Source: Verrucomicrobiota bacterium (GTDB lineage Bacteria; Verrucomicrobiota; Verrucomicrobiia; Verrucomicrobiales; DEV007). From it: DNA of 42,774 nucleotides. Position 1 is the first letter of the stretch. Every line of letters starts with the position of its first letter. This document shows positions 20,509 to 30,817 of the stretch, piece by piece. The notes under the pieces were generated by a model. That model searched no databases. It was not told the origin of the DNA and was given only the letters and a program-made list of their open reading frames with translations. A program made the translations under genes and the position numbers. The stretch lies in contig DAOUQC010000039.1 of NCBI GenBank assembly GCA_030625775.1, positions 1 to 42,774 on the forward strand, given 5' to 3'.

Positions 20509-20531
20509 TCAGCTATTCAGCTGATTTTTTT
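20509..20531 (+). terminator. Intrinsic terminator of the TPR gene, inside the 3' end of the SulP gene
   Basis: TCAGCT (20509-20514) pairs with AGCTGA (20519-20524) across a 4-base loop, followed by seven T. It lies just after the TPR stop and overlaps the last codons of the opposite-strand SulP gene, where the T run is read as Lys-Lys. Confidence 0.7.
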
Positions 20532-22348
20532 GAGGGATCGTAGAAAATTTTCACATCAGCCTCCGTGGTGCCCAGTAACTCCTGGGCTCGCAGCAGAGCA
20601 TTTCTTGTTGAAAGGTTGGGCCGTCTTGGGGAATTGAGGAAAATATTAGACCTGCCCACCTCGTCTACCAAACCCGAATCTCGGAGCACTCGATAAACTT
20701 CTTTGGTAGCCCCACTGATGATCAGGTCACGATTGGTTGAACGGAGAAAATAAATCAACTCTTCCAATGCCAACACACTCGTTGCATCCAGATGGCGGGC
20801 ATTTTTCAGGCGGAGAATAACAATCCTCAAATTCGGATCCATACAAGTTTTCTGAATCTGCGAGCGAAACAGCTCCGCCGCACCAAAAAACAGCTCGCCT
20901 TCGACATGAACAATGGAAATCGAAGGGGTGGGGCGTACCCCTTTCTCACTAGCCTCAGCCAATTGTCCGTCCTCCATGAACTCATATTCAGTCAGATGGG
21001 GACGACTGGCTTTACGCAAATACAATACAATTGATATCCCAACCCCCACAAAAATTGCCACATTCAGAGGAGCGACCAAAGCTGTGACAAAAGTAGCCAC
21101 CAAGACCACCGCATCTGAGCGAGTGGATCGTAAAGCCACGCGAATGTGCCGGCGATTGATCAAAGATCCCGCCACACAAATGACAAGAACAGCTAGTGCC
21201 GTCTTGGGCACGTAAGCCATTAAGCGCCCTAAGGCCACCGCCCCCAGGGCCACCAGCACCCCACTGATGACGCTGGACAAACGGCTCACTGCGCCACTAG
21301 TGAAATTCAAGGATGAGCGAGTCAGCGAACCCGAAGCCGGCATGCCGCCTGTCATCGAACACGCTAGATTGGAAATACCGACACTCAACATATCCTGATT
21401 CATGTCGGGTCGATCTCCTACCCGGCTTGCCAGGGTTTTTGACATCAGGGAGTTCTCCAGTGCTGCAAGAAAGGCAACTGAAAATGCCACCCCTAAAAGC
21501 TGACTAACGTCATTAAACATGCCCGCCTCCGAAAACCGGGGAATCGAGGGTTTTAAATCGGCAAGACTGAAAGCTTCAAAGGTCTCGAAACTAAATCCTG
21601 CGTATAGCCGTAATACGACCGAAATTACCGATACCAGTAAAAGTGTGATCGCAAAAACGGGTAAGGTTTTAAACAAACGCGACAAAATATACCAAATCAC
21701 AAAGGTCAAGGCACCCAATATCGCGGGATCCCGATGCATCCGAGGAATGGCTTCCACCGTGGATTTTAAAATACTGACAAAAGTCCGGGCCGCCGTCTCC
21801 CCTCCCTCTACCTGTAAATCCACCCCCATCACATGCCGCAGCTGATTGACAATAATCAACACCGCCGCCGCCGTGATATACCCAACCACCACACTGCGGC
21901 TGATAAACTGGATCAGATCCGCCACTCGTAAATAGGCACCAATCACCAACATCGCCCCCACCATGAATACCAACAGAGGCATCAACGCCAACATATACAG
22001 ATGCGGGTAAACTGCAAAATAACTGAACAGCATGAATGCCGTCGCATTGGTCGGCCCCAGAACCGTATGCCGCGACCCCGAAAACAAAGGGGCCACGATG
22101 GCTGCCACCGCCCCGGTCACGATGCCATAATAAATGGGCAGTTCAGCTATCACCGCATAAGCCATGCCCTGCGTGAAGGATAACAGTGCCACGTTGAAGC
22201 CTGAACGAGCGTCCGCCTTAAAGCCTGCCAAGGAGTAATCCTTGAAGTCTTTACGGATCGGCAAAGGATCCAACTCGTTATCCCTGACAAATGACGCCAA
22301 GGCATGCCTCGCGTTTCTCGCAATCAGCCTGGTTCGTCTCCACTTCAC
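20513..22348 (-). CDS. SulP-family anion transporter with STAS domain
   Basis: A 611-residue inner-membrane protein. The SulP signature region reads FNVALLSFTQGMAYAVIAELP (about 51-71), followed by GSRHTVLGPTNATAF and about a dozen hydrophobic helices. ALENSLMSKTLASRVGDRPDMNQ and MTGGMPASGSLTRSSLNFTSG are conserved core segments. A C-terminal STAS domain (about 455-560) contains IVILRLKNARHLDATSVLALEEL. SulP proteins carry sulfate, bicarbonate or dicarboxylates; the substrate here is not determined. The start at 22348 is a GTG. No ATG occurs before about residue 60, so GTG or a similar start is needed. It follows ccoI by 87 bp on the same strand and might be read through from the cbb3 operon. 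Confidence 0.9.
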   Translation of the reverse strand: MKWRRTRLIARNARHALASFVRDNELDPLPIRKDFKDYSLAGFKADARSGFNVALLSFTQGMAYAVIAELPIYYGIVTGAVAAIVAPLFSGSRHTVLGPTNATAFMLFSYFAVYPHLYMLALMPLLVFMVGAMLVIGAYLRVADLIQFISRSVVVGYITAAAVLIIVNQLRHVMGVDLQVEGGETAARTFVSILKSTVEAIPRMHRDPAILGALTFVIWYILSRLFKTLPVFAITLLLVSVISVVLRLYAGFSFETFEAFSLADLKPSIPRFSEAGMFNDVSQLLGVAFSVAFLAALENSLMSKTLASRVGDRPDMNQDMLSVGISNLACSMTGGMPASGSLTRSSLNFTSGAVSRLSSVISGVLVALGAVALGRLMAYVPKTALAVLVICVAGSLINRRHIRVALRSTRSDAVVLVATFVTALVAPLNVAIFVGVGISIVLYLRKASRPHLTEYEFMEDGQLAEASEKGVRPTPSISIVHVEGELFFGAAELFRSQIQKTCMDPNLRIVILRLKNARHLDATSVLALEELIYFLRSTNRDLIISGATKEVYRVLRDSGLVDEVGRSNIFLNSPRRPNLSTRNALLRAQELLGTTEADVKIFYDPSKKSAE

Positions 22349-22435: not shown

Positions 22436-24862
22436 TCACACCCTGATTGTATTGGCCAGAAAAAGTGCTGCCAAAGAACTGAGTGGCATCAGGACAGAGG
22501 CTAAAAGGGGGTTCATCCAACCCGCCAGGCAAATTGCCACAGCCAATACATTGTAGGTCACCGAGACGGTCATGATTAAGGCAATGGTTTGCCGACGCTG
22601 ATGAACCAGCTTGAGCAGTTCGCGAATGGCATGCAAACCACGACCGAGAAAATAAAAATCGGCACGACTTTCCAATATCCCAGTTCCAACAGCTGGTGTG
22701 CCACGACAAGCAGCTGCATCAAAAGCGAGGCTGTCGTTAGCTCCATCCCCAATGTAGAGGATGCTCCCGGGATTATGATGGCAGATCCAATCCGCTTTTT
22801 CCTCGGGAGTGAGTCCCGCCAAAACGTTATTGGTATCAATACCCAACGTTTTGGCAACGCGCATGACGCGCTCATCCTGATCCCCGCTCAAAATCCCCAA
22901 TTCATATCCCATGTGGGAGAGCGCACTAACTTCTTCACAGGCATCTTCACGAAGCGCTTCTTCAAATTCAAAAGCTGCAATCCGGATACCATCACAGGTG
23001 AAGACACTCGTTGCGGCACCTTCAAGCTCTTCTCTTTCTTGCCAGCCAGGCTTGCCCAGACGCCAGGTTATTGTCGGTTTATCGCTCCACTCCACTCCAC
23101 AACCTACAGTTTCTTTTACACTGTGATCTACTGACTTCCCATCAATCAACCACCACCCACGGGATGCCATCTCCTCCTTAAGCGCACGCGCGATGGGATG
23201 GTAACTGCCTTCCAATAAGTTCACCAAGGCGGACCTCTGCTCGGCACTCAAATGATCCAAAACCTCGGAATTCATCAACTTCGGAGAGTCGAGAGTCAGT
23301 GTTCCCGTCTTATCAAATACTACCCGGCTCACTCGTTTCAACCTCGACCACATAGAAATTTCCTGAATAAAAACTCCGGACCGGCGCAAACGCGATACAA
23401 TCAGTTCATCCAGAAAGGGCAAAGCGAGTCCCAAAGCACAAGGACAAGAAACGACAAGAACTGAAATAAATACCTGAAATGCTCGTGCCCCATCATGAGC
23501 CCAGCCTAACCAGGCCAGAGCTCCCGCCACAGCTGTCACCAGCACGACGATGAGATACCATTGTAAGACTCTCACAAGATCGCGGCTCGTTTCGGCCACA
23601 TCGCCCCCTCCTGTCATCAGTTTTTCCAAGCGCGATCCAGCAAAAATATTGATAGCCTGCAAAGGTAGGGTTTCTCTACCCACATTCATCGCTCCTCCTG
23701 GAATCTCAGCACCACATCGCAGGGTTCGGGCTTCAGGCTCCCCGTTGATCCATTCAAAACTGAACTCACCATCACTCCGGTTCAGACGGGCATCGACTGG
23801 ACTGGGCTCTCCTGGTTTCAATAAAAAGTATTCTCCCTCTTTCAGTTCCTCCACAGCTACCAGTCGTGTATTCCCCTCATCATCCTCAATCAGCACCTCG
23901 CGTAAAGAGAGGTCACCACTCAATACCCGCTCTCGATTTTTTTCCAATGCCGCTTGTTGGAGCCAACGTCCTGCCAGCATCAGAAAAGCAAATACGGCAA
24001 CAAAATCAAAGTATTTCAGTGACTCCATCCCGCTCAACCATCCAACTAGCGAACCAACATAAGCCGTGATCAAGCCTATGGAAATCGGTAGATCCATGTG
24101 CAGAGATCCCGCCGCCATGGCCCGCCATGCCCGCCCAAAGAAAAAACCTCCCCCCACAAAAAGCGCAATACTTGCCGATGCCAGGGTAATCAGGTCAAAC
24201 ACTCCAGCCAATAAAAAATCCGCTTCCATCCCCAGGTATCTTGGTAAGGTGAATACCATCGCATTCAAAGCCAGTGCTCCACTCACTCCTACTCTAGTCG
24301 CCAACTCCCGCGTCTGGGATTGCTGCTCTCTTGTCCCCTCACCTACCGCTCCCACCACATAACCAAACTTCAACAGCTCCCGGGCAAAATCAGTCGCAGC
24401 AAATTCGCCCGCCTGCCACCACAGGGTCACCCTCCCTCGCTGGCTATCCACCACAATACGCAAAGCCCCCTGCTGACGCTGAAACAACTTTTCTATCAGC
24501 CACACACAAGCCACACAGGACAAACCTTGCATCTCAAAAACCCGCTTGGCCGCCGCACCGCGCTCCACCCCCGCCTCGGCCAGTTCCACCTCGGCCACAA
24601 GCCAGCTCCAATCTCTTTCCTGAAAAGCGAGAGATTTAACCGGAGCCAGTGCCTCACCCCCTTTCAGGTGATAAAAACGTTCCAGGCCCTCCTTATCAAT
24701 CAGCTGATAGACAAATCGGCACCCGGCACAACAAAAATCCTTGTCAGTCCCCTCCCGCATGCGGAAGCGAGTTCCACAATGAAGGCATTCCACATGAGAC
24801 CCCTCCCCGGCGTTCCCCAAGTTTCCTGAAGCTGCGCCTGTCACCACTATTGCCATTATCAT
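22436..24862 (-). CDS. ccoI: cbb3 oxidase assembly copper-transporting P-type ATPase CcoI (FixI)
   Basis: An 808-residue P1B-type ATPase. The FixI-specific N-terminal cysteine cluster reads VECLHCGTRF with DFCCAGCRFVYQL. An HMA-like metal site GLSCVACVWLIEKLF follows. The membrane copper motif is SCPCALGLALP (about 470), the phosphorylation site FDKTGTLTLDSP (about 514) and the hinge IGDGANDSLAF (about 704). In the actuator domain the usual TGE is NGE (about 371). CcoI brings copper across the membrane for the CuB site of cbb3 oxidase. The ATG at 24862 falls seven bases after the preceding stop. A longer frame exists only from a TTG at 24916 that overlaps the TauE gene, so it is rejected. Last assembly gene of the operon. 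Confidence 0.92.
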   Translation of the reverse strand: MIMAIVVTGAASGNLGNAGEGSHVECLHCGTRFRMREGTDKDFCCAGCRFVYQLIDKEGLERFYHLKGGEALAPVKSLAFQERDWSWLVAEVELAEAGVERGAAAKRVFEMQGLSCVACVWLIEKLFQRQQGALRIVVDSQRGRVTLWWQAGEFAATDFARELLKFGYVVGAVGEGTREQQSQTRELATRVGVSGALALNAMVFTLPRYLGMEADFLLAGVFDLITLASASIALFVGGGFFFGRAWRAMAAGSLHMDLPISIGLITAYVGSLVGWLSGMESLKYFDFVAVFAFLMLAGRWLQQAALEKNRERVLSGDLSLREVLIEDDEGNTRLVAVEELKEGEYFLLKPGEPSPVDARLNRSDGEFSFEWINGEPEARTLRCGAEIPGGAMNVGRETLPLQAINIFAGSRLEKLMTGGGDVAETSRDLVRVLQWYLIVVLVTAVAGALAWLGWAHDGARAFQVFISVLVVSCPCALGLALPFLDELIVSRLRRSGVFIQEISMWSRLKRVSRVVFDKTGTLTLDSPKLMNSEVLDHLSAEQRSALVNLLEGSYHPIARALKEEMASRGWWLIDGKSVDHSVKETVGCGVEWSDKPTITWRLGKPGWQEREELEGAATSVFTCDGIRIAAFEFEEALREDACEEVSALSHMGYELGILSGDQDERVMRVAKTLGIDTNNVLAGLTPEEKADWICHHNPGSILYIGDGANDSLAFDAAACRGTPAVGTGILESRADFYFLGRGLHAIRELLKLVHQRRQTIALIMTVSVTYNVLAVAICLAGWMNPLLASVLMPLSSLAALFLANTIRV

Positions 24863-24869
24863 AAATCGG

Positions 24870-25571
24870 CTACGAATGTGGCAATCCGCATCCACAGTCA
24901 GCAGCCTGGTCGACAAACCACAACATCCCCCTGAACCTCCACGTTAAAGCCACTGCTGCTAACAAGGCCACCCCACGTTGAATGTGCTGGATCCTCACTG
25001 GAGAAATTTTCTTCTGCCAAAAACCAGCCCCGCTCTGCATCAGCCACAAAAGAGGAACCGTCCCCAGTCCAAATGCCAACATTAATTCGGCACCCTTGAC
25101 GGGTGACCCGCTTAACAAACCGATGCCCAACATTGCATACAAAGGCCCGCAGGGCAGCAGCGGCGTAGCCAACCCCATCATCAATCCCCTTCGGGCACGG
25201 GAGCCACTAGTCAAACGCCGCCGAAAACGCTCAATCATTTTATCCATCCACGAAATAGTCGGCAAATACCGCTCTGCCCCTAAACCCACCAACACTAAAA
25301 ATACAATCAACACCCAAGGCACCAGATTGCCCCCGTTTCCCATCAACCTGCTGACCGGATAATAACCAAGGGCTCCAGTCACAATCCCAAGAATCATATA
25401 CGCCAACAAGCGGCTCGCATGATAGGCACTGACCCCTCCAATTCGATCACTTCCACCTGCAATCCCCAAACCACAAGTCAATAGGCCACACATGCCTGCA
25501 CAGTGCACACTCGTCACTAATCCTGCAACAAAGGCCCCCGCTGTCCCGTTGATTGATTCAATTCCCGTCAT
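24870..25571 (-). CDS. TauE/SafE-like membrane protein of the cbb3 assembly cluster
   Basis: A 233-residue polytopic protein. The N-terminal AGLVTSVHCAGMCGLLTCGL, with a HCAGMCG Cys/His motif, and the central GLATPLLPCGPLYAMLGIGL identify the TauE/SafE (UreH-like) family member commonly encoded beside ccoI. The C-terminus ends in DCGCGLPHS, adding two more cysteines. The family is thought to act in copper handling or cytochrome assembly, although the Pfam name suggests sulfite export. It overlaps the preceding 54-residue gene by 14 bp and ends seven bases before ccoI, so all three are probably translationally coupled. Confidence 0.88.
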   Translation of the reverse strand: MTGIESINGTAGAFVAGLVTSVHCAGMCGLLTCGLGIAGGSDRIGGVSAYHASRLLAYMILGIVTGALGYYPVSRLMGNGGNLVPWVLIVFLVLVGLGAERYLPTISWMDKMIERFRRRLTSGSRARRGLMMGLATPLLPCGPLYAMLGIGLLSGSPVKGAELMLAFGLGTVPLLWLMQSGAGFWQKKISPVRIQHIQRGVALLAAVALTWRFRGMLWFVDQAADCGCGLPHS

Positions 25572-25722
25572 CCTGTCCGCCTTTCTCCCCCGCTTGAATT
25601 ACAGGTATCACCTCGGGCTGGTTTTCTTTCGCAATCTTGATCAACACGATCCAAGCCGCAATCAACAATACAAAAGTCACCACAATCCAAATCCAGGGCT
25701 GCTCTCGTATCCAAGCAATCAT
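25558..25722 (-). CDS. 54-residue one-helix protein in the ccoH/fixH position
   Basis: Translating the 25558-25722 gap by hand gives a 54-residue frame. It begins MIAWIREQPWIWIVV, has one membrane helix at about residues 10-30, and ends in a charged tail (QAGEKGGQDDGN). Its ATG overlaps the ccoG stop (ATGA) and its end overlaps the TauE-like start by 14 bp, so translation of all three is coupled. In standard ccoGHIS clusters this is where ccoH (fixH), about 150 residues, lies. The Trp-rich start PWIWIVV resembles the N-terminal helix of FixH, but the periplasmic domain is missing. It could be a minimal CcoH or an unrelated small subunit. Confidence 0.72.
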   Translation of the reverse strand: MIAWIREQPWIWIVVTFVLLIAAWIVLIKIAKENQPEVIPVIQAGEKGGQDDGN

Positions 25723-27140
25723 TTTGCTACCTTTTCTACAGTACTCTCACGAATGACATAAGCACTTGGCCCTAAAAATTTTACAGATTTGGTCAATTCA
25801 TCATTTCCAGGCATTGCCTTAATCAGCAACTTCAACTCAAACTGCCCGGCATACTTATCTGTTGGAATCATTGCCAAAAACGGACGCACGCCTTCACTCT
25901 GTGCTTCCAGAATGATCTCTTCATCAAATCCACTCAATACCAGGCCATCCGGCGCATCCACCACCTGTATTCTGAAAGTAGTTGGCTCATTCAATTTGGT
26001 CATCAGCCGGATTTGATACTGGTTGCGCACACCTGCTTCCGTCACGTAGTAAGGTTGCCCCTTCATCCGGTTCACATCAGCAAACACTGAGTGCAACCCG
26101 GACAACAAATAAATCATTGCCAAAAATCCCAAAACCAAGGCCACCGTATAAACAATCACACGGGGACGAAGGTAACGTGTTCGCCCACCATTCAAACCAA
26201 CCAGGGAATCATAACGAACCAATCCCTTGGGGCGGTCAAGACGTTTCATGATGGCATCACAAGCATCCACACAAGCAGCGCAACCTATACATTCCATCTG
26301 CAAACCATTGCGAATATCAATCCCTGTCGGGCACACCTGCACACAACGTTGACAATTCACACAATCACCATAACCGGAATCCTCCCCCCGCCCCCTCGGC
26401 TCCCCTCGACGGGTGTCGTAACCAATCACCATGGTATTGTCATCCGTCAACGCCGATTGAATCCGGCCATAGGGGCATATGATGATACAAAATTGTTCCC
26501 GAAACCAGGAAAAGCAAAAATACAAAGCCAGAGTCAGAAACATCACCACACCAAAAGCTTTGGCGTTCTCCAAGGGAGGACGTTTCACATATTCATAAAG
26601 ACTGGACAAGGATACAAAATAAGACAGAAAAACGTTGGCGATTATCAATGCAACAAGAATGAAAAGGCTGTGTTTGACCACTCGCTTCACCACTTTGTCC
26701 CCTGTCCAGGGAGCTTGCTCCAGTTTGCGTCTGGCCGCAGCATCCCCCTCTATCCACCGTTCAATCCGCCGATAAACATGTTCAAGAAATACCGTGTAAG
26801 GACAAGCCCAACCACACCACAAACGACCAAACATCGAGGTCACATAAAAAAGACCCAGACCAAGTCCGGCAATCACAAAAAAAGCCAACCACAAATCCTG
26901 AGCCAGGAAAGTCAGGCCGAATAAGTGAAACCTTCGATGCGCCAAGTCAAAGAACAGCGCCGGGTAACCTTTGATTTGAATCCACGGCAATGCGACATAA
27001 ACCACCAACAAAATCAATCCAAACCAACGACGCATTGAAGTGAACCTCCCTTTCACGTCCGCCGGTTGCGGACTGAAATGGGAGCCATCTACGTTAATCG
27101 TAGTGACGGAATCCAGATTCGGCTTTTTCAGTCGTGCCAT
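25719..27140 (-). CDS. ccoG: cbb3 oxidase accessory ferredoxin-like protein CcoG
   Basis: A 473-residue membrane protein. Membrane segments lie near 40-55, 83-103, 157-175, 195-212 and 327-345. Two [4Fe-4S] cluster motifs are at Cys260/263/266/270 (GDCVNCQRCVQVCPTGID) and Cys284/287/290/294 (MECIGCAACVDACD). Other CcoG landmarks are WCGWACPYTVFLEHVYRRIE and CIIICPYGRIQSAL. The C-terminal ~110 residues form the Ig-like FixG domain. CcoG is a copper(II) reductase needed for copper delivery to cbb3 oxidase. It is coupled by a 4-bp overlap to the next small gene. Confidence 0.96.
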   Translation of the reverse strand: MARLKKPNLDSVTTINVDGSHFSPQPADVKGRFTSMRRWFGLILLVVYVALPWIQIKGYPALFFDLAHRRFHLFGLTFLAQDLWLAFFVIAGLGLGLFYVTSMFGRLWCGWACPYTVFLEHVYRRIERWIEGDAAARRKLEQAPWTGDKVVKRVVKHSLFILVALIIANVFLSYFVSLSSLYEYVKRPPLENAKAFGVVMFLTLALYFCFSWFREQFCIIICPYGRIQSALTDDNTMVIGYDTRRGEPRGRGEDSGYGDCVNCQRCVQVCPTGIDIRNGLQMECIGCAACVDACDAIMKRLDRPKGLVRYDSLVGLNGGRTRYLRPRVIVYTVALVLGFLAMIYLLSGLHSVFADVNRMKGQPYYVTEAGVRNQYQIRLMTKLNEPTTFRIQVVDAPDGLVLSGFDEEIILEAQSEGVRPFLAMIPTDKYAGQFELKLLIKAMPGNDELTKSVKFLGPSAYVIRESTVEKVAK

Positions 27141-27187: not shown

Positions 27188-27826
27188 TCACTTTCCTTTG
27201 GGCTGAGCCGAACCATCACTTTTTGGCTCGTGATAACTCAGTATATAAGCTACCGTTTCTACTACCCCTTTGGCACCAAGCTGACCCTCAAAGGCAACCA
27301 TGCCCTTGGTGATGTCCGGAGACCCCTTCATCACAATATTATAAATACCCATCGGAGTGCCTTCACCATACTTCCATATGGCATCATTCAAAGGCTCACC
27401 AGGTAGTTTATTCCCCGCCATTGTTGCCGACAAATCCTTACCATGACAAGCAAAGCAGACCGTCTGGAAAGTTTTTTCACCTGCCGCCACCACCGCTGTA
27501 TCCTGGGACATTTTCCACAAAGCGGTATCATCCAGATTCTCTGCCACTTTCTCCAGCTCTCTCACTTGGGCTGCCTTGACAACCGCCATGCCTTCATCAA
27601 GTCGCTCGACATCGCTTTTTATCCATCCGAACTGGTAATAAGCAACCCAGTAGCCAATGAAAAATACGATCATGATGTATAGAGTGAACAACCACCAATT
27701 CGGCAGGCGTTGATCATACTCCCGAATACCGTCATAGACGTGATCCCGCAAAATCACCCCTTCAGGTAATTGTTCGAGCTCCACCTTTGTCTTTGTTTCC
27801 GCTGTATTGTCTTTTTCTTCAGCCAT
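27188..27826 (-). CDS. ccoP: cbb3 oxidase subunit III (CcoP) with a single haem c
   Basis: A 212-residue protein. The N-terminal region DHVYDGIREYDQRLPNWW (about 28-45) is the CcoP signature, followed by one membrane helix (TLYIMIVFFIGYWVAYY). Only one haem-c motif, CFACH (about 125-129), is present, followed by the methionine-containing VMKGSPDITKGMVAF. Standard CcoP is about 290-310 residues with two haem-c domains, so this protein lacks one domain. It accepts electrons for the oxidase from soluble cytochromes. It is separated by one base from the ccoQ-like gene. Confidence 0.93.
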   Translation of the reverse strand: MAEEKDNTAETKTKVELEQLPEGVILRDHVYDGIREYDQRLPNWWLFTLYIMIVFFIGYWVAYYQFGWIKSDVERLDEGMAVVKAAQVRELEKVAENLDDTALWKMSQDTAVVAAGEKTFQTVCFACHGKDLSATMAGNKLPGEPLNDAIWKYGEGTPMGIYNIVMKGSPDITKGMVAFEGQLGAKGVVETVAYILSYHEPKSDGSAQPKGK

Positions 27827-27827
27827 T

Positions 27828-28025
27828 TCACTTCAGGTCAGAATATTTATTATTTCGCTGCAATCCATCATCTTTGAGCAAGGGCAAACTTGCCATATGC
27901 TCGGATTGTTTTTTCCCCATCAACAAGGCCTTGACTGACAGCACCAGAAACACAGCAAAAGTCAATAGAAACGCCACCACAGGTATCAGCATATGCCAGT
28001 CTTCGAGTATCAATCGTTTGAACAT
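27828..28025 (-). CDS. ccoQ: Small cbb3 oxidase subunit IV-like protein (CcoQ)
   Basis: A 65-residue protein with one membrane helix at about residues 13-35 (LIPVVAFLLTFAVFLVLSVKALL) and a polar tail. It lies between ccoNO and ccoP, the standard ccoQ position. TAGGAG lies seven bases before its ATG, one of the clearer ribosome sites in the window. CcoQ stabilises the oxidase. The sequence is too short and divergent to prove homology, so the call rests on position and topology. Confidence 0.78.
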   Translation of the reverse strand: MFKRLILEDWHMLIPVVAFLLTFAVFLVLSVKALLMGKKQSEHMASLPLLKDDGLQRNNKYSDLK

Positions 28026-28051: not shown

Positions 28052-30574
28052 TTACTTTTCTGGTTCAGCCGGAGTTTTCTCAGGCACCACTGTTGCCGGT
28101 TTTTTGTCAGGTCTGTAAGTATCGGGCAACCCTGGTTTGATGGTTGCAGGCTTGTGCCCTGCTGCCCCTTCCGGTGTCACCTCTACATAGGTGCCTAGCT
28201 TTTGAAGATAAGCGATCAAAGCCACAATCTGTTTCTTTTGCAGATATTCCTTCGCAGCCTCACTTGAAGGAAGCTCCACGCCCGCTTTTTCCGGAATAGA
28301 AACCTGGGCATCAATCAAACGTGAAGCGATTTCCTGTGCCTGTTTTTTTGCTTGATCCAAAATTACATTTTTTGTCATCGCCTCATAGGGAACCCCCAGT
28401 CGTCGTTGCACCGCTATTTTAGAAGGCAATGCCTTGATATCGGTGTCTTTATGAGCCAGCCAAATATAGTTAGGCATACGGGATTGACTGTTCAGACTGC
28501 GCGGATCCATCATATGTGCAAAATGCCAGTCATCTCCCCTCTTACCCGCTTCACGTGCGAGATCGGGCCCGGTTCGCTTTGATCCCCATTGGTGAGGAAA
28601 GTCATAAATGGATTCTCCCAGCCGGGAATAATCACCATAGCGCATCACTTCGGGAACCAGGGTCCGGATCATTTGCGAGTGACAATTGTAACAACCCTCA
28701 CTGACATAAATATCACGTCCGGCAAGTTCCAGCGGGGTGTAGGGAACCTGTAAACGATCCTCTATATTTTTTGCCCGGTTCACCGTGACCGTAGGAATAA
28801 TCTGGATTGCCCCGCCAATGGCCATTGCAATAAACACCAATACTGTGAAAGGCATATAGTTCTCCAACAAATGCTCATACCACCCGGCCCACGTATTTGT
28901 CGATTTCTTAAAGGCCCTGACTGCCAACCAGGTCAATATCAATGTAATTCCCAGCGCCATCCAGTTGGCATAGGGAGGAAGAAAGAACCATAACAGCATG
29001 AAAACAATGATCCAGAAAGTGTAAGCAATCGGATCATTACGAAACACTTCGCTCCAGGTCATGCCATCCTGTTTTTTCTTCTCTTCAACAAACACCTCGA
29101 CGGTGCCATTGGTCGCCTGGCCCGAACGAGCTGTTTTGTAAATATTGACCGCCAATAGAATAAATCCTACCAGGAACAAGGTCCCTCCCAAGGCCCGGGC
29201 AAAAAGCAACAAATTGATCTTGTCCACCGTCTCGGCAAATTCATAAATCAATCGGGTTCCCGTCTCGTCGGTCTCGTTGAGCAGCAGCCCCTGCATGATA
29301 CCGGCCACCCACATCGATCCGACGTAGAGCAAGATACCTATCAAGCCAACCCAGAAGTGCATGTTGGCCAATGATTCCGACCACAGCTTGGTCTTCCACA
29401 AACGGGGGGCCATCCAATAGAACATTCCAGCAGCCAAAAAGCCATTCCAGCCCAGGGTTCCACTGTGTACATGACCAATCGTCCAGTCGGTGTAATGCGA
29501 CAAAGCATTCACCGAACGAATCGCCAACAGCGGCCCCTCAAAAGTGCACATGCCGTAAAAAGTCACCGCTGCCACAAAAAACTTGATCACCGGGTCAGTG
29601 CGCAACTTGTCCCAGGCCCCACGCAAGGTCAGCAAACCATTCAACATCCCCCCCCAGGACGGAGCCCATAGCATCAAGCTGAAAAACATCGCCAGCATTT
29701 GAAGCCATTTGGGCAGTGCTGTATTGAGCAAGTGATGGGGGCCCGCCCAAATGTAAATGAATACCAATGACCAGAAGTGAATAATCGACAGGCGATAAGA
29801 ATACACTGGTCGATCTGCCGCTTTGGGCAGGAAATAATACATGATCCCCAACATCGGTGTGGTCAGGAAAAATGCGACGGCATTATGCCCATACCACCAC
29901 TGAACCAAAGCATCCTGCACCCCGGAAAATACCGGATAGGCATGGGTCAAACTGGTCGGAATCTGCAGGTGGTTAACCACATACAAAACCGTGATCGTAA
30001 TGATCGTCGCGATATAGAACCACAGTGCCACATACAGAGAAGGCTCATTACGCTTTTTCAGCGTCCAGAGGAAATTGAAAGCAAACACCAACCAGATCAC
30101 TGCTACCGCAATATTGATCGGCCAGATCAACTCTGCGTATTCCTTACCTCTCGTCAATCCGATCGGCAAAGTAACCGCTGCCCCCACAATGATCAGTTGC
30201 CACCCCCAAAAATGTATTCTCGAGAGCAAATCAGATGCTGTCCGGCATTTACACAAACGCTGGGTCGAATAATAGATCCCTGCAAACATCATGTTGCCTA
30301 CAAAGGCAAAAATCGCTGCGTTGGTATGCAAGGGCCGCAATCGACCAAATGTGATATACTGCAGCCCCTCGGTCTTGAACGCCCCGAAAGTGATCCACTC
30401 CAGAAACTTGCCGTTTACTTGCCAAAAGTTCAGTTGAAAGGCGATGATCACCCCAACCAACATCGCTACCAGAGCCCATACGATGGAAGCTCCCATGAAC
30501 CACCTCACCGACTTGTCATCAAATTCAATGGTCTGCTTCAACCCTGCTTTTTGCGTACTCATTCCGTCTGTCAT
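28052..30574 (-). CDS. ccoNO: Fused cbb3 oxidase subunits I and II (CcoN-CcoO)
   Basis: An 840-residue fusion. The first ~480 residues are the twelve-helix catalytic subunit CcoN: FGRLRPLHTNAAIFAF, the haem and CuB histidine region WWYGHNAVAFFLT, WAGPHHLLNTALP, and the distal HYTDWTIGHVHSGTLGWNG. A linker at about 485-510 leads into CcoO. Its membrane anchor is followed by the mono-haem cytochrome c region, with CYNCHSQMIRTLVPE near 626-640, YDFPHQWGSKRTGPDLAREA, and WHFAHMMDPRSLN. It reduces oxygen with high affinity. Met5 is an alternative start. It follows the ccoS-like gene by 87 bp. Such fusions are known in some Bacteroidetes and related groups. Confidence 0.96.
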   Translation of the reverse strand: MTDGMSTQKAGLKQTIEFDDKSVRWFMGASIVWALVAMLVGVIIAFQLNFWQVNGKFLEWITFGAFKTEGLQYITFGRLRPLHTNAAIFAFVGNMMFAGIYYSTQRLCKCRTASDLLSRIHFWGWQLIIVGAAVTLPIGLTRGKEYAELIWPINIAVAVIWLVFAFNFLWTLKKRNEPSLYVALWFYIATIITITVLYVVNHLQIPTSLTHAYPVFSGVQDALVQWWYGHNAVAFFLTTPMLGIMYYFLPKAADRPVYSYRLSIIHFWSLVFIYIWAGPHHLLNTALPKWLQMLAMFFSLMLWAPSWGGMLNGLLTLRGAWDKLRTDPVIKFFVAAVTFYGMCTFEGPLLAIRSVNALSHYTDWTIGHVHSGTLGWNGFLAAGMFYWMAPRLWKTKLWSESLANMHFWVGLIGILLYVGSMWVAGIMQGLLLNETDETGTRLIYEFAETVDKINLLLFARALGGTLFLVGFILLAVNIYKTARSGQATNGTVEVFVEEKKKQDGMTWSEVFRNDPIAYTFWIIVFMLLWFFLPPYANWMALGITLILTWLAVRAFKKSTNTWAGWYEHLLENYMPFTVLVFIAMAIGGAIQIIPTVTVNRAKNIEDRLQVPYTPLELAGRDIYVSEGCYNCHSQMIRTLVPEVMRYGDYSRLGESIYDFPHQWGSKRTGPDLAREAGKRGDDWHFAHMMDPRSLNSQSRMPNYIWLAHKDTDIKALPSKIAVQRRLGVPYEAMTKNVILDQAKKQAQEIASRLIDAQVSIPEKAGVELPSSEAAKEYLQKKQIVALIAYLQKLGTYVEVTPEGAAGHKPATIKPGLPDTYRPDKKPATVVPEKTPAEPEK

Positions 30575-30661: not shown

Positions 30662-30817
30662 CTACTCTTGCCTTTTCCCCTCATCATCATCCAGAGGCAG
30701 CAGCGCCTCCTGATCCAAGCTGCCACTCTCACGCTTCTGCTGGTCGCGCAAAAAAAGAACCACAAACAGGATCGCCAGCAAGAGACTAATAAACAATGTA
30801 AATATCAAAACTTCCAT
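30662..30817 (-). CDS. ccoS: cbb3 oxidase assembly protein CcoS-like
   Basis: Found by translating the gap. The 51-residue frame starts MEVLIFTLFISLLLAILFVV, a single N-terminal membrane helix, and continues with a short tail containing SGSLDQEALLPLDDDE. CcoS proteins have exactly this form: about 50-60 residues, one helix, then an S-G-x-x-D-D-x-x-x-P-x-x-x-x-L-x-D-D pattern. CcoS is needed for insertion of haem and copper into CcoN. Here it is the first gene of the operon, 87 bp before ccoNO, whereas in proteobacteria it is normally last, after ccoI. The tail match is loose. Confidence 0.78.
   Translation of the reverse strand: MEVLIFTLFISLLLAILFVVLFLRDQQKRESGSLDQEALLPLDDDEGKRQE

Follow-up and report, generated by a model that had tools for sequence, protein, structure and literature searches.

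We asked what occupies the CcoH/FixH position of a cbb3 oxidase operon in a Verrucomicrobiota bacterium (the window, a stretch of 42,774 nucleotides), where the gene directly after ccoG encodes just 54 residues. A sequence-only reading of this DNA had noted a 54-residue frame overlapping both neighbors by 4 bp and 14 bp, with one membrane helix and lacking the roughly 100-residue periplasmic domain of FixH, and had left two options, that FixH can be reduced to its helix in this lineage or that another small subunit has taken its place. A one-helix protein in this slot raises the possibility that what the oxidase requires of CcoH is chiefly its helix.

The genes form a minus-strand run in the order ccoS-like, ccoNO fusion, ccoQ-like, ccoP, ccoG, small frame, DsbD_2 and ccoI-type ATPase. 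The small frame (25558..25722, minus strand, ATG start) is preceded immediately by ccoG (25719..27140, minus strand, 473 aa; Pfam Fer4_18 and FixG_C) and followed immediately by a membrane protein gene (24870..25571, minus strand), with coordinates that bear out the overlaps of 4 bp and 14 bp at its two ends. The downstream neighbor had been placed correctly and labeled TauE-like, a label replaced here by Pfam DsbD_2 (PF13386). Beyond it lies a heavy-metal P-type ATPase gene (22436..24916, minus strand), named ccoI because of where it stands in the operon and because it carries an ATPase-cat_bd domain, and after this on the same strand a SulP-type sulfate permease with a STAS domain (20513-22348). 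On the other side of ccoG are ccoP (27188..27826, minus strand; FixP_N and Cytochrome_CBB3) and a fused ccoN-ccoO of 840 aa (28052..30574, minus strand; COX1 and FixO), the CcoN part of which is the presumed docking partner of the small protein. Fusion of ccoN and ccoO was also common in the other phyla examined.

Two further small genes belong to the run. The CcoQ/FixQ place between ccoO and ccoP is taken not by the small frame but by another gene of 65 aa (27828..28025, minus strand), called ccoQ-like from its position and LPL-type tail in the lack of a Pfam FixQ match; for this name the usual operon order was assumed. A ccoS-like gene of 51 aa (30662..30817, minus strand) opens the run ahead of ccoNO, with a weak FixS match under the cut-off, and the best FixS match of the genome falls at 30749-30814. 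In model operons ccoS presumably follows ccoI, unlike the arrangement in the window. CcoS (PF03597) resembles the small protein in having about 50 residues and one helix, and differs in that the small frame gave no FixS match; with candidates for both CcoS and CcoQ located elsewhere in the operon, either identity was rejected for the frame between ccoG and DsbD_2.

Scans of the 54-aa protein against Pfam and NCBIfam matched no family. Its AlphaFold2 model (mean pLDDT 78, 8-row alignment) was a single long helix spanning residues 9-33, in agreement with the one membrane helix noted earlier, and the periplasmic domain is indeed absent, because just 21 residues come after the helix. Four positions (W10, F17, W24, A31) were nearly invariant in a 46-row alignment, and their spacing of seven residues places them in one stripe along the helix, where conservation was periodic near 100 degrees (equally strong in 0 of 5000 permutations). 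The N-terminal flank was more positively charged than the C-terminal flank in 37 of 46 members and less so in 6, a bias that suggests a cytoplasmic N-terminus. The FixH-type topology of one helix with the N-terminus in the cytoplasm is thus predicted from the AlphaFold2 model and the charge bias.

Conservation was examined within the order and the class. ccoG was sought in 57 related genomes and found in 31, the window's own included. Thirty loci of the order were returned, two of which end at a contig edge and were excluded, and the remaining 28 were aligned; all 28 readable loci, the window among them, carried a short one-helix frame after ccoG (44-104 aa when counted from the most upstream start). 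The dN/dS ratio was 0.03-0.24 in 8 of 8 pairs, with synonymous changes dominant, three sequences used twice and dS near saturation in some pairs, while reading the window pair in its two other frames gave 1.8 and 2.6. The 54-aa frame is thus confirmed as a gene, and the small protein is under purifying selection. A spurious ORF or a functionless decaying remnant, which the shortness of the window copy and its want of a family match might suggest, is hardly credible against these ratios, against the presence of the gene in 35 of the 36 class genomes that have ccoG, and against the relatives lacking ccoG, in five of six of which the small protein had no counterpart at E <= 0.1 (the sixth, E 0.037).

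The class figures come from a draw of 240 genomes that samples the phylum, 52 of which have ccoG. In the 36 class genomes with ccoG the small gene was observed beside ccoG in 33 and elsewhere in two, and one genome was unreadable (G209, where a contig end cuts the locus). The two displaced copies (G168, L313 near 8574; G183, L314 near 6546) are distant from ccoG, and no cco genes were recognized around them in the stretches read. FixH over the Pfam cut-off was found in 0 of these 36 genomes and in all 16 of the ccoG genomes from outside the class, which are the only genomes of the draw to have it. It lies within 234 nt after ccoG in 15 of the 16, with a 4-bp overlap in 11; the other (G135) has FixH and ccoG on separate contigs. 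The comparison across Verrucomicrobiota proposed by the sequence-only reading therefore gave a short frame in the class and full FixH in the same slot in other classes. The outcome that would have spoken against it, a full-length ccoH elsewhere and no conservation of the short frame, was not found: a FixH search of the window's own genome (96.4% complete) came back empty at a threshold of E <= 10, and the short frame is conserved at the protein level. The class rule is not absolute, since one Limisphaerales MAG assigned by NCBI to the class Verrucomicrobiia (L179) carries a full-length FixH next to a divergent ccoG (37% identical); these genes were possibly transferred or mis-binned.

Likeness to CcoH/FixH (PF05751) was measured with profiles. 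Among 46 relatives of the small protein FixH was the commonest Pfam match (9 of 46 at E <= 10), with a best E of 9e-4, about 20 bits and below the FixH cut-off of 23 bits. Ten proteins were scanned singly, and the five that matched FixH all scored under 23 bits and covered profile positions 1-38. The second most frequent match, Anthrone_oxy (6 of 46), presumably arose by chance. A search with a single HMM proved weak in separating FixH from other membrane ORFs (AUC 0.60, p 0.007), with CcoQ and spurious ORFs also ranked high; it was set aside as proof of FixH homology and profile-profile comparison with permutations was used instead. In hhalign the class profile matched a profile of 68 FixH proteins with probability 88 (p 3.4e-6), compared with 65 for CcoQ (p 6e-5) and 2 for CcoP. 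The trimmed alignment gave probabilities of 60 for FixH (p 8.6e-5), 38 for CcoQ and 1 for CcoP, scores that were reached by 0, 7 and 229 of 300 column permutations, respectively; over two comparisons the CcoQ score was reached by 7 and 9 of 300. Against 25 short FixH proteins of Myxococcota the probability rose to 92 (p 6.4e-7, 0 of 300 permutations). The helix of the small protein is therefore a moderate match to the N-terminal helix of FixH, with CcoQ second; hhalign set it against residues 5-37 of a FixH, pairing the two along the length of the helix and at the Trp with which it starts.

The second option, in which an unrelated subunit with one helix (a CcoM-like protein or a duplicate of CcoQ) moved into the slot after the loss of FixH and stabilizes the oxidase, is weakened by these scores, and we regard it as unlikely. 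It draws on the weak similarity to the CcoQ profile, on the family-less window protein (taken alone, this protein still belongs to no Pfam family) and on the Myxococcota that are sister to the class on the ccoG tree, which mostly have no such gene after ccoG. CcoQ is alike in being small, with one helix, in the same operon; it differs in having a separate CcoQ-like gene already present there and a match weaker than that of FixH, whose score no permutation reached. Slot and inferred topology are those of FixH, and one locus in the sister group (L214, with low support inside that group) encodes at this position a short protein resembling FixH. CcoM of the Pseudomonas cbb3 oxidase, named in PMC8267372, is likewise a small single-helix oxidase protein, a likeness of general description. 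When PDB was searched with the 28-row profile, two matches came back, both at chance level (E 0.48 and 5.1).

The small protein shares with FixH its slot, directly after ccoG in a cco operon, and one N-terminal helix. A start that overlaps the ccoG end by a few bases was seen, using the most upstream starts, in 28 of 62 class loci, 11 of 22 short Myxococcota loci and 44 of 110 full FixH loci. It differs in lacking the periplasmic domain of about 100 residues and in falling under the FixH gathering cut-off, with no match at all for the window protein, and because both of these fail it is not filed as a FixH member. We name it a helix-only CcoH-type protein. Probably, then, the frame encodes a CcoH reduced to its transmembrane helix, the helix that would dock on CcoN. 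Slot, helix profile, inferred topology and truncations in Myxococcota favor this reduction, which the sequence-only reading had confined to one lineage; the reduction is supported and the confinement is not, since short FixH proteins also occur in Myxococcota.

A total of 107 of 188 Myxococcota genomes had ccoG, and 90 loci from these were examined. Forty carried full FixH, 22 a short protein and 6 a DsbD_2 gene directly after ccoG, 21 were unclassed (mostly unrelated frames after ccoG) and 1 was cut. Six of the unclassed loci (L271, L272, L285, L287, L289, L290) were taken as short by eye for the tree. The short Myxococcota proteins have 41-84 aa, and in many of them the terminus is still DxxY-like, a FixH trait; mid-helix they often have Asn where the small protein has Trp. 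FixH was the top Pfam match in 8 of 10 that were scanned, and one of 67 aa (L262) exceeded the FixH cut-off (29.5 versus 23 bits) over positions 6-58 of 150, with a ccoI-like frame directly after it by inspection.

A set of 157 ccoG loci was also classed, with 70 full, 64 short, 12 having none, 6 unclassed and 5 cut off; two of the short loci (L060 and L095) are repeats of L073, which leaves 62. The slot protein had 41-116 aa in short and 140-255 aa in full loci (most upstream starts), the gap between 116 and 140 aa being partly by construction, as the length classes were set by us (short, under 110 or 130; full, at least 110). Encoding of the missing domain past a frameshift was rejected: in the forward frames of the 900 nt after ccoG a C-terminal FixH signal showed up in 0 of the 89 short loci, some of which have little DNA past the frame (L265, 166 nt after ccoG), and in 110 of 110 full loci, many of which belong to the C-terminal FixH model itself. 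We also rejected compensation for the lost domain by the ccoN-ccoO fusion, since 48 full-FixH loci are fused as well. N and O were separate best-hit frames in 11 of 13 short-FixH Myxococcota loci with upstream DNA, with one unsure row (L295) in which the two frames overlap.

The history of the slot was traced on ccoG trees of 128 and 192 rows, thinned by rule, which are trees of ccoG and not of the small gene. Just 2 changes suffice for the labels full, none and short on the 128-row tree, where the class with the short gene is gathered in one group (support 98) adjoining Myxococcota without the gene. With more Myxococcota added, on the 192-row tree, at least 6 changes between full and short are required and short proteins appear in seven groups, and a single short clade was rejected (p-AU 3e-51, on 66 hand-picked rows). 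These changes and this rejection make the reduction of FixH seem recurrent, as judged from the ccoG sequences, and some of the changes could be regains or gene transfer. We incline, by a narrow preference, to the broader proposal that the essential part of CcoH/FixH is its membrane helix and that the periplasmic domain has been repeatedly discarded, so that an assembly factor became an oxidase subunit of 40-60 residues; this form would have been fixed once throughout almost all of the class and a second time in a large group of Myxococcota.

Published work on CcoH guides the proposed mechanism. In PMC7876108, the R. capsulatus bc1-cbb3 structure has an extra helix beside CcoN TMH9, tentatively CcoH, and co-evolving contacts are described only between CcoN and the N-terminal helix of CcoH. 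PMC8267372 reports that Rhodobacter capsulatus and Campylobacter jejuni require CcoH for the assembly or the activity of cbb3, and it relates from Pawlik 2010 that where CcoH was absent the complex went undetected, whole or as sub-complexes, and that CcoH binds CcoP through its transmembrane domain. PDB entry 9G6B contains CcoN, CcoO and a FixH protein. We infer docking on CcoN through the stripe because of these reported contacts and this structure. The small protein, its N-terminus on the cytoplasmic side, would pack W10, F17, W24 and A31 on CcoN transmembrane helix 9, as modeled for the Rhodobacter capsulatus CcoH helix, would aid assembly or stability of CcoNO/CcoP, and would remain as a small subunit. 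The periplasmic domain of FixH would then be an accessory part, dispensable in these lineages.

The overlap of the small frame with both ccoG and DsbD_2 in the window, and the description of CcoG as a cupric reductase in PMC8475189, could instead point to a helix that serves CcoG or DsbD_2 in copper or redox handling, not the oxidase, with its place reflecting co-translation. We consider this very improbable: in the two genomes with a displaced copy the small gene is away from ccoG, most short Myxococcota loci have a ccoI-like frame next and no DsbD_2 motif was seen there, and the contacts of CcoH in the literature, as far as the sources consulted go, are CcoN and CcoP. Under the favored reading of a CcoH reduced to its helix, natural helix-only versions separate the two parts of CcoH and predict that the CcoN-docked helix carries the essential function. 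Within the literature collection searched, we came across no account of a CcoH that is truncated or reduced to its helix. The reading also fills an annotation gap, as neither Pfam nor NCBIfam has a family for the window gene and such a cbb3 operon otherwise appears to be without CcoH.

A DsbD_2 gene directly after ccoG was observed in twelve loci, mostly from Myxococcota or Bdellovibrionota (L125-L129, L132, L134, L139, L141, L151, L157, L178). A whole-genome FixH search for these gave none over the cut-off in 11 of 12, which suggests that some cbb3 oxidases may do without CcoH entirely. One of the genomes searched (L128) had a single borderline FixH match, at profile positions 68-141.
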